DNA of 64,000 nucleotides from an uncultured Verrucomicrobiota bacterium. GTDB lineage: Bacteria > Verrucomicrobiota > Verrucomicrobiia > Opitutales > Seribacteraceae. The translations under genes and the position numbers were made by a program. Numbering within the stretch: the stretch's first letter is position 1; each line of letters starts with the position of its first letter. Location: positions 18,277-82,276 of the forward strand of contig CACFTI010000007.1 of the NCBI GenBank assembly GCA_902569115.1, given 5' to 3'. The notes below the pieces were generated by a model. That model did not search any database and was not told where the DNA came from. It saw nothing but the letters and a program-made list of their open reading frames with translations. Below, piece by piece: positions 56,306-60,433 of this stretch.

Positions 56306-56343
56306 TTTATTCACCTTTCTATGTATTTGAACTAAATTTAGGC

Positions 56344-57738
56344 TTATAAATTATCTTTATTTGCAAGGGATGCGTCATTTTTCTCAGATATGTTATCCCA
56401 TGATTCCCATTGTTGTGATTTAAAATTGAAGAAATAGCGGGGATTAGAACCAAGTTCGAAATAGTGCCAAGTATCTGTTTTATGAGTATAAACCAATGGG
56501 TAGTGATCCGCATCGGTAAAGATCCAGCCGCGATCGTTGTCGTAGACCCATCCATTAATGAAAGGGACCTGAGCCATTTTAACAGCTTCTTCTGCTTGTT
56601 TTGTAGCTACACCAAGTTCATGTTTTAGGTTATTGTTGTCCTGAGTTAGGTTGGCAACCTGTGCTGTTAAGACATCATTCTTTTCCACCTCCTCTGCCAA
56701 TTCTCCTCTCAGTTCTTTGTTCTCATAAGTTAGCTCCTGATTTGTGGATTGAAGCTCGGTAATGGTTTCGTCTTTTAGTGAAATTTCTTCTTTTGCGTCA
56801 TTGAGTTCAGCTGAGAGTTGCTCGATTTGCTGTTGGAGTGCTGCAATCGTTTCCAAGTAATCATCGGCAGGGGGTGTACCTGGGTCAGTTGAAGGCGGTG
56901 ATGGTGGATTGTCATCATCAAGACCTTCTGAATATTCAAGTTCAATATAGAAAATTTCGCTTTGAGAATTTGTATTACTGCGACCAAATTGGGCTACAGA
57001 GTAACTAGAATTAGGAGCCCCTTGGACTGTCATTCTTATTTGTAGAAAAATATCTTTTTGACCTAGTAAAACTTGAGGTAACTGATCATGAAAAGTTTTA
57101 GATTCACTAAGTTTTTTAGGGGTTTTAATATCAATTATGTTTATCCATTCGATGCCATCGTTTGAAACCCACGCAGAGGCTTCTCCTGAACCACTACCAA
57201 AAGCTCCACCGGCATTAAAATTCCAAGTATCAAGTTTAATTTTAAGTTTTGCTGAAGTAATTGTTCCATCGACAGAATATTTGTAAGTGAGTTTACCTTC
57301 TTTGTTATTATTGCTTGGTCCAAAGTATGTAAGCGGTGGAGTTTGCCACTCTGAATACTTCGTAATATTTGTTTTTTCAATTAAGTATTCGTTAGCATCT
57401 TCCTGATTTAAATGTTTGATCGAATGCCTAAATGATAGATTTTCTGCTTCGTTGGGTACATTTAGATTTTCGAGTTCGCTTACATCTGGAGTTGTCAGTG
57501 AATCAGACCCAGTTGGTTTATTCGTCGGAACCATGCTATCCAAAGTGGACCAATAACCCGTATCTGTAATAGAAGTCGAGACGGGAACATCACGGAGGCT
57601 TAAATAAGTGGTTGATCCATCAATTACCAGTGCTGGGTGAGCGTATGATTTGTTTGGGCTCCAGGTTTGGGGTCCTTGAGCGGAAAGAAAGCAACTTATT
57701 ACTAAGAGTGACAATGTGGTGAATAATCGATTTTTCAT
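56344..57738 (-). CDS. Secreted modular protein: CBM5/12-like head, coiled-coil stalk, aromatic-rich C-terminal domain
   Basis: Start re-placed at MKNRLFTTLSLLVISCFLSAQG; WSPNKSYAHPALVIDGSTTYLSLRDV; long heptad-rich segment; C-term INGWVYDNDRGWIFTDADHYPLVYTHKTDTWHYFELGSNPRYFFNFKSQQWESW. Confidence 0.8.
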   Translation of the reverse strand: MKNRLFTTLSLLVISCFLSAQGPQTWSPNKSYAHPALVIDGSTTYLSLRDVPVSTSITDTGYWSTLDSMVPTNKPTGSDSLTTPDVSELENLNVPNEAENLSFRHSIKHLNQEDANEYLIEKTNITKYSEWQTPPLTYFGPSNNNKEGKLTYKYSVDGTITSAKLKIKLDTWNFNAGGAFGSGSGEASAWVSNDGIEWINIIDIKTPKKLSESKTFHDQLPQVLLGQKDIFLQIRMTVQGAPNSSYSVAQFGRSNTNSQSEIFYIELEYSEGLDDDNPPSPPSTDPGTPPADDYLETIAALQQQIEQLSAELNDAKEEISLKDETITELQSTNQELTYENKELRGELAEEVEKNDVLTAQVANLTQDNNNLKHELGVATKQAEEAVKMAQVPFINGWVYDNDRGWIFTDADHYPLVYTHKTDTWHYFELGSNPRYFFNFKSQQWESWDNISEKNDASLANKDNL

Positions 57739-57911
57739 TTTGGTTGGAATTAAGTGGAATTTGAAATTAAAGACTAAAGTTAATATATATACATTAAATA
57801 AGTATATGCATAAGTCAAGCAAATATGTATATTCATGTGAAAGTACTTTATTTGCAGATTGGAGAGCGTTGATGTGTTCATGGTGATTTACTGACTCATC
57901 AGTTTTACCAA

Positions 57912-57948
57912 GAAAAAAGCGGGGCCCTTTGGTAGACCCCGCTTTTCT
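57912..57948. terminator. Rho-independent terminator downstream of the adhesin-like gene
   Basis: Perfect 10-bp stem AAAAGCGGGG (57915-57924) / CCCCGCTTTT (57937-57946) with 12-nt loop. Confidence 0.85.
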
Positions 57949-57997
57949 TAATTCATTTACTTATATAAAACAGAATGTATCTGCACCAAATAATCAC

Positions 57998-60433
57998 TTA
58001 TAAATTATCTTTATTAGCAAGGGATGCATCATTTTCCTCAGATATGTTATCCCATGATTCCCATTGTTGTGATTTAAAATTGAAGAAATAGCGGGGATTG
58101 GAACCAAGTTCGAAATAGTGCCAAGTATCTGTTTTATGTGTATAAACCAATGGGTAGTGATCCGCATCGGTAAAAATCCAACCGCGGTCATTATCGTACA
58201 CCCATCCATTAATGAAAGGAACTTGAGCCATTTGAACAGCTTCCTCCGCTTGTTTTGTTACTGTTTCTAAATCATGGCTTAGCGAATTATGCTCGAATTG
58301 AAGATTATTTATCTGAGCAGTTAGGGACTCGTTCTTGCCTTTGAGATCGGTTACTTCCGCATTTAATGATTCGATTTGAACGGTGAGATTCGCTTTATCA
58401 TTACTAAGAACCAAATTATCTTCTTGGAGGTTTTGAATCTCGATTGATTGCTGAAGTACTTTTTCATTTAGATCGTTAATTGTATTTGCAAAGTCAGGAG
58501 AAGGAGGAGCTCCGGGAGCAGACTTAGGTGCAGTAAATTTTGGCATTGGACGACTGAGGGGATTGTTTGGGTCTGTCTTGGCTACTACTTCCTTTCCGTC
58601 ATCTATACCATCCCCGTCACTGTCCTTAGAGTTGGGATTTGAATAATATCCAAATTCGAGAATGTAACCGTTGCGATTTTCATTAAATTGGTTGTCATTC
58701 CATGCACGGTTACCATCAAGGGAAGGTCCCCAAGTCTGAAGGAAGTCTTCATCTCCGAGGTTGTTGGGCTCATTTGCCGCCCATTTTGTGAATTTCCATG
58801 CCTCTCCTGTGATCCATTCCCATACACCTTCGCTTTTCTCATCTGTACCCCCCAGCCAGTAAGTAGATGGGAGTGGACCAACTTCATTTCGGACAGCTTC
58901 CCATTCCTCTTGAGAAGTAATAGTTGCAAGGTGACCCCCTCTGCTCTCTGCGTCAGTTTTTGCACTTTTCCAATCGTAGGATCCGGCAATAAGTTTGTAC
59001 CTACCTCTGCCTACTTCATAAGCATCGGTCAGTCCATCGCCATCTGAGTCTTCGAGTCCTCCATCGAAGAGACGAGCAACCTCGGCGTCATTGATAGCAC
59101 GGTTATAGACATAAACATCATCTATATTTCCATGATACTTTCTGTCCCCGTGACGGTTCTTTCCTACAATAATGTTTGAGAATGAATTAGCATCCCCTCC
59201 CTCAAGCTCCTGTGAGTAGACCCTCTCTCCGTTTTCATAAAAGCGGATGACATTTCCGAGTACGGTAACTGCGAGGTGTTGCCACTCTTGAGTTACAAGG
59301 GCAAAGCTCTCTGGGTTACTTGAGAAAAATTGATAAGTAGGATACCGACCTCCACTGGTATGAATTTGGCATGTGTCGCGAGACCCTGGAGTTTTATCAT
59401 GAATATTGATTACTGAGCGATAGCGACTTTGCTCAGTGTTTGCAGCTTTTGCCCAAAGTGAAAGAGAAAAATCTCCAATACGATTTTCAATATCAGTAAT
59501 CAGGTAGTTGCTTTGTCCATCAAAAGAGTAGGCGGAATCTTCCATTCCAAAACGATCAATCGCCATAGTTGCACCATGATTTTCCAAGTGATTCTCATTT
59601 CCACTTTGGTCATTTGAGTCTCCGCTAAATGGGTAATGACCTACAAGACCGGCACTAAGGTCAATCATGTCAGAAGTGTCCTTGTAGAGAGCTTCCACCT
59701 CATATTCATTTAATCCCCTTCCATAGATCCTGAAGTCGTCCATGGCTCCATCCCAATATTGTATTTTTCCTTCGTAGTCGCGTCCTATCCTAAATGCAGT
59801 TGTAATCTCTAAACTGCCGGTATGACTAACGCTGGAGACCAGTTCCCCGTTGATGTATATTGCCTGCTTTTCATTATCAATAACTGTTGCAAAATGAAAC
59901 CATTCTTCTTTAGGGATAGCCTCACTACGAATGGTGAACTTTTTTTCGCCAGAATGATTAAACTCAAGCGTATTTCCTGAAGATGTTTGCGTTTCAAGAA
60001 AGATCTCCCAAACATTGGTCAGAGCTTCAAAAACTTGTTCGATTCCTGAAGAAGATTCGTTTCTGTAAAGCCAACCAGTGACCGTTAGCTCATCCTCAAG
60101 AATTTTTGAAAAGTCAGGAGTGAGTATGAAATTGTTTTTAAATGCAAAAGCGTTGTCCTCATGTCCAAAACGATTTTTTGTTCCGGTGGTTCCATTGACT
60201 AAACTATGGTTATTATTCCCTGATTTATCATCTCCCGATCCATCGAAAGAATAGTGGGCAAGTAACGAATCATTTAAGTTCACCTTTCCGATTCGGTCTG
60301 AATTAAACTGGGGAGTGATTTTAACATAGTCCAAGCCGTTGACCTTAGGTTGACTCGCAGCTGTCTTAAAACTTGTGAGTGTTAATAGTGAGGAAAAGAT
60401 AAGTGGTAAGATAATTTTATTATTCATAAGCAT
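57998..60433 (-). CDS. Secreted modular adhesin-like protein: two LamG-like domains, C-type lectin domain, TSP3-like repeat, coiled coil, aromatic-rich C-terminal domain
   Basis: LLAHYSFDGSGDDKSGNNNH and LVGHYPFSGDSNDQSGNENH; YKLIAGSYDWKSAKTDAESRGGHLATITSQEEW...WIT..NEPNN..; DSDGDGIDDGKEV; same C-terminal domain as the neighbouring gene. Confidence 0.88.
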   Translation of the reverse strand: MLMNNKIILPLIFSSLLTLTSFKTAASQPKVNGLDYVKITPQFNSDRIGKVNLNDSLLAHYSFDGSGDDKSGNNNHSLVNGTTGTKNRFGHEDNAFAFKNNFILTPDFSKILEDELTVTGWLYRNESSSGIEQVFEALTNVWEIFLETQTSSGNTLEFNHSGEKKFTIRSEAIPKEEWFHFATVIDNEKQAIYINGELVSSVSHTGSLEITTAFRIGRDYEGKIQYWDGAMDDFRIYGRGLNEYEVEALYKDTSDMIDLSAGLVGHYPFSGDSNDQSGNENHLENHGATMAIDRFGMEDSAYSFDGQSNYLITDIENRIGDFSLSLWAKAANTEQSRYRSVINIHDKTPGSRDTCQIHTSGGRYPTYQFFSSNPESFALVTQEWQHLAVTVLGNVIRFYENGERVYSQELEGGDANSFSNIIVGKNRHGDRKYHGNIDDVYVYNRAINDAEVARLFDGGLEDSDGDGLTDAYEVGRGRYKLIAGSYDWKSAKTDAESRGGHLATITSQEEWEAVRNEVGPLPSTYWLGGTDEKSEGVWEWITGEAWKFTKWAANEPNNLGDEDFLQTWGPSLDGNRAWNDNQFNENRNGYILEFGYYSNPNSKDSDGDGIDDGKEVVAKTDPNNPLSRPMPKFTAPKSAPGAPPSPDFANTINDLNEKVLQQSIEIQNLQEDNLVLSNDKANLTVQIESLNAEVTDLKGKNESLTAQINNLQFEHNSLSHDLETVTKQAEEAVQMAQVPFINGWVYDNDRGWIFTDADHYPLVYTHKTDTWHYFELGSNPRYFFNFKSQQWESWDNISEENDASLANKDNL

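Follow-up and report, generated by a model that had tools for sequence, protein, structure and literature searches.

The window analysed here, a stretch of 64,000 nucleotides, contains two neighbouring minus-strand genes for proteins A and B (Table 1), and as the original prediction had noticed, the two are arranged in tandem and end in the same tail, only two positions differing in the last 84 amino acids. The two LamG domains and the C-type lectin domain that had been read into the head of B are supported by Pfam (LamG, 2e-40; Lectin_C, 8.4e-10), which adds TSP3 repeats (1e-8). For the head of A a CBM5/12-like domain had been proposed, but no such family is present among the Pfam matches listed at E ≤ 0.35, making the label a weak one. 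The ORF of A as listed (56344-57822, minus strand, 492 aa) begins with TTG; the ATG at 57738, which gives MKNRLFTTLSLLVISCFLSA, is judged from the sequence to be the likelier start, because a signal peptide scores 4.14 there by a simple heuristic of hydrophobicity and cleavage site rather than a trained predictor (B, 3.8). The proposed coiled-coil stalk was predicted by AlphaFold2 (AF2) as a single uninterrupted helix of 59 residues.

Table 1. Features of the A and B genes in the window.
Feature	Positions	Strand	Description
Protein B	57998..60433	minus	811-aa ORF; signal peptide, 2 x LamG, C-type lectin, TSP3 repeats, coiled coil, short-form aromatic domain
Protein A	56344..57738	minus	signal peptide MKNRLFTTLSLLVISCFLSA, head without assigned family, coiled coil, short-form aromatic domain
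Coiled-coil stalk of B	58220..58501 (approximate)	minus	Pfam coiled-coil families at residues ~644-735; AF2 helix 2-60 (numbering of the modelled C-terminal segment)
Coiled-coil stalk of A	56566..56868 (approximate)	minus	Pfam coiled-coil families, residues ~319-415 of the TTG-start ORF
Short-form aromatic hairpin domain of B	58052..58219	minus	PFINGW...WESW, three hairpins; alignment A6
Short-form aromatic hairpin domain of A	56398..56565	minus	profile and alignment A6; amino-acid identical to the domain of B
DNA repeat over C-terminal module of B	57975..58274	minus	89% identity over 300 nt
DNA repeat over C-terminal module of A	56321..56620	minus	89% identity over 300 nt

One edge of the homology between A and B is the stop codon, while the other fades into the coiled coil. 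All changes within the 52 codons compared in the domain are synonymous (dN = 0, dS = 0.37), implying purifying selection and not a very recent copy. The closest relatives of the tail come from congeners (L154 and L155, ~77-80% identity), and the two window copies are closer to each other than to these. On these grounds, the tail is a duplicated or converted module under purifying selection.

What is not discernible from the window itself is that a longer repeat domain exists, of which its tail is a shortened form. The unit is a 20-residue aromatic β-hairpin, and the long form has five of them in ~95 aa, with the consensus GWxxSxWFGxF....GWIYHxxLGWxY.......xWLWxxxxGWLWT....xPxLY......WLYF.........FYDY....W and a content of ~11% Trp and 8% Tyr, whereas the short form (~50 aa), found in the window proteins and in 39 of 152 distinct copies, consists of the last three hairpins only. 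The internal 20-residue repeat is significant: at lag 20 the column profiles score 10.07, and the highest of 500 column shuffles reaches 7.0. The AF2 model of the long form, made from 85 sequences, has a pLDDT of 93.6 and ten strands in order, which we read as five sequential hairpins; the short form of the window was modelled, at low confidence, as the stalk helix followed by three hairpins (strand pairs). Sequence that is poor in Pro, Gly and aromatic residues and looks like a coiled coil precedes the short form in 15 of 34 cases but the long form in only 1 of 109. The domain of B was recovered by profile search at E 2.2e-26 with alignment A6, which itself includes the B sequence. Short-form coiled-coil proteins also lie in neighbouring gene arrays elsewhere, as the window pair does (G016:C11:27171-37052, G014:C172 and G012:C227).

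The tail had been taken to lack a known family, and indeed neither Pfam nor NCBIfam holds a model for the domain. In sequence searches of Pfam, NCBIfam and the PDB, 3 of 85 members showed weak WW-type matches, and nothing else was returned. Foldseek comparison of the long form with the PDB gave no convincing fold (best E 0.58, TM ≤ 0.30) and comparison with viral models no significant match; the domain is a small fold of aromatic repeats, predicted with confidence, for which no solved relative was found. Our literature search found no paper on it. As a sequence family it appears to be missing from the libraries we searched and from the papers we found; terminal modules that occur in multiple copies and serve in localisation or binding are, as a kind, already known.

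A search seeded with seven copies detected 24 in the genome that contains the window, most of them long-form; these copies were too divergent for a scan with a degenerate pattern, and a closer sequence set was used instead. Every sampled genome of the genus is positive (25 of 25 including this one, 3-40 copies each). In the order, 73 of 274 sampled genomes are positive, and a search of 388 genomes from the phylum gave just two positives outside the order; at these two levels the best candidates alone were scored in each genome, which makes the copy numbers lower bounds. The named relatives carrying the domain are Opitutia/Opitutales metagenome genomes. This lineage of marine Verrucomicrobia turns out to fix the module to the C-terminus of dozens of secreted proteins per genome that are otherwise unrelated. 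An origin from a mobile element or plasmid was considered and rejected; the plasmid search gave no match, and one locus lies on a viral contig. This contig from a viral collection (L180, IMGVR_UViG_3300046370_000543) encodes a copy with 36% identity and may be a misassigned host contig. An orphan ORF of 76 aa in the genome of the window (L014, G000:C9:5931-6149) holds a domain remnant only and is probably a decayed gene.

The domain ends within 20 aa of the stop in 142 of the 152 distinct copies, at 21-80 aa in 5 and farther away in 5, and it thereby recurs as the C-terminal module on unrelated secreted heads that had been anticipated. At least four copies are clearly internal or N-terminal (L158, L201, L152 and L137); L158 is a short-form copy placed N-terminally in a longer protein, after a signal peptide and a coiled coil. 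With the orphan ORF excluded, all 17 domain proteins of the window's genome with a complete N-terminus have signal-peptide-like starts by the heuristic used for A and B, on which cytoplasmic controls score lower. Their heads include cadherin/Ig repeats, LamG, C-type lectin, β-propeller, reprolysin, trypsin, subtilase, thioredoxin and DUF285, and among the families listed for 93 heads from other genomes cadherin, TSP3, Ig, LamG and thioredoxin prevail. No cytoplasmic family is prominent among the heads, and placement that is mainly internal or cytoplasmic, named beforehand as speaking against a surface role, is not what we found. In some proteins (G000:C9:15173, C30:539, C21:18663; L043) the domain is followed by a helical-looking tail, e.g. 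LTDEEKQQAVTDLFLYGEF, sometimes behind an InlB-type repeat; from its sequence, this could be a second recurrent tail.

The C-terminal position, the coiled coil that is frequent before the short form and the small aromatic core would also suit a structural cap or oligomerisation module for the C-terminus of long repetitive proteins. However, the domain caps compact enzymes too, thioredoxin, trypsin and subtilase among them, it is conserved across heads of very different fold and its expansion is restricted to one lineage, and we consider such a role quite improbable. Another possible role is that of a carbohydrate module that binds extracellular polysaccharide of algae or particles rather than the producer's own surface: the domain is a small, aromatic-rich β domain, and marine Verrucomicrobiota have been described as specialist polysaccharide degraders (PMC8857213). 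Among the heads, however, adhesin-like repeats, proteases and thioredoxins predominate; the 25 of 59 families listed include no glycoside hydrolase, a pectate-lyase-like fold occurs in only 2 of 93 heads, and the strong C-terminal bias would be unusual for modules of this kind, leaving such a role very unlikely.

PEP-CTERM signals consist of a short PEP motif, a hydrophobic helix and a basic tail at the extreme C-terminus, and the original prediction had likened the logic of the shared tail to theirs. The likeness lies in a tag that recurs, within a genome, at the C-terminus of varied exported proteins. We rejected the identity because the domain is a folded β unit of 50-95 aa with a Trp-rich strand or a polar tail at its end, having neither short motif nor membrane helix nor basic tail, and the link to exosortase because this enzyme is encoded in 28 of 31 domain-rich and 25 of 30 domain-free genomes, so that presence of the domain is independent of it; one domain-rich genome that is 94% complete (G122) has no exosortase match. 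The few internal and N-terminal copies also speak against a C-terminal signal that must be cleaved, and the expected genomic link to a dedicated processing gene was not found. What survives of the earlier reading is the recurrent, near-strictly C-terminal module on secreted heads, and what falls is the PEP-CTERM-like sorting. In the family of the window's genome (f1), PEP-CTERM was detected in 0 of 13 genomes and exosortase in 11 of 13, compared with PEP-CTERM in 42 of 48 genomes elsewhere; this is a lead and not evidence of replacement by the domain, since both are found in domain-rich genomes from other families.

We propose that the shared tail is a non-covalent surface-attachment module made of all-β aromatic hairpin repeats resembling choline-binding repeats, a reading that we hold at about even confidence. 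Its starting points are those established above: the repeat and its two forms, the C-terminal bias, the secreted heads, the lineage expansion and the purifying selection on the duplicate. In the proposed scheme, the proteins would be exported by Sec with the domain at their end; each hairpin and the next would have between them a pocket formed by Trp, Tyr, His and Phe, and these pockets would bind a general constituent of the producing cell's own outer surface, with a glycan or a partner in the outer membrane as the likeliest candidates. The variable heads (adhesin-like repeats, proteases, thioredoxin) would thus be tethered non-covalently at the cell surface. As the short form often sits on a coiled coil, we infer that oligomerisation may compensate for its fewer repeats by avidity. 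Copies at internal or N-terminal positions, such as L158, are expected of a binding module; on the other hand, the sequence of the domain matches none of the known binding modules and its C-terminal bias is stricter than usual for such modules.

Alternatively, the folded C-terminal domain could be an outer-membrane export signal for a dedicated translocon, as the C-terminal domains of type IX secretion (T9SS) are. The many copies per genome, the combination of a Sec signal peptide with a strongly C-terminal folded β domain on unrelated heads, which is the layout of T9SS cargo (PMC4804311), and the patchy, all-or-many distribution between related genera, which differ in this respect within the families f4, f10 and f18, are consistent with this possibility. 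Models for the T9SS machinery (SprA/Sov and PorP/SprF; TIGR04189, PF11751) matched in 0 of 61 genomes, but the control genomes were equally silent and the absence is suggestive only. Neither did the fold search return a T9SS domain, and some copies are internal or N-terminal. We consider an export signal rather unlikely and prefer surface attachment on account of the internal and N-terminal copies, the T9SS components undetected along with silent controls, and the repeat architecture that parallels choline-binding repeats. A bolder version seems to us unlikely: Opitutales-type Verrucomicrobia would have an as yet undescribed system of outer-membrane secretion and anchoring for which the domain serves as address tag, equivalent to T9SS but based on a new fold and a separate translocon.

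To our knowledge, the placement of proteins on the outer surface of Verrucomicrobiota is largely undescribed. The domain offers an HMM-detectable handle that recurs tens of times in a genome and marks the probable surface proteome of these marine lineages, and the search for its receptor or translocon becomes testable through gene co-occurrence and the proteomics of a cultured member.

Besides PEP-CTERM, two known systems come closest. The C-terminal domains of T9SS, both type A and type B, are folded β domains of similar size carried in many copies by unrelated Sec-exported proteins (PMC4804311, PMC9143113). They are, however, seven-strand Ig-like sandwiches, whereas five sequential aromatic hairpins are predicted here with no PDB match at E < 0.5, and our domain differs also in its occasional internal and N-terminal copies and in the SprA and PorP result. 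Choline-binding repeats (CW_binding/LytA-type) differ from it in that none of 85 members matched the Pfam choline- or cell-wall-binding models at E 0.05, that choline-binding proteins are absent from the best 50 Foldseek matches in the PDB, that the hairpins number three or at most five and that the lineage is Gram-negative. A hallmark of the choline-binding family is a left-handed solenoid of hairpins that binds choline between its repeats. Yet the two share tandem aromatic β-hairpins of ~20 residues, seen here in the lag-20 score and the five predicted hairpins and there as a 14-aa hairpin plus a linker of 6-7 residues with aromatic sites between repeats (PMC4929436), as well as the GW...W-aromatic pattern and the usual location at the protein end, and the known family attaches non-covalently to the surface of its producer (PMC4929436).
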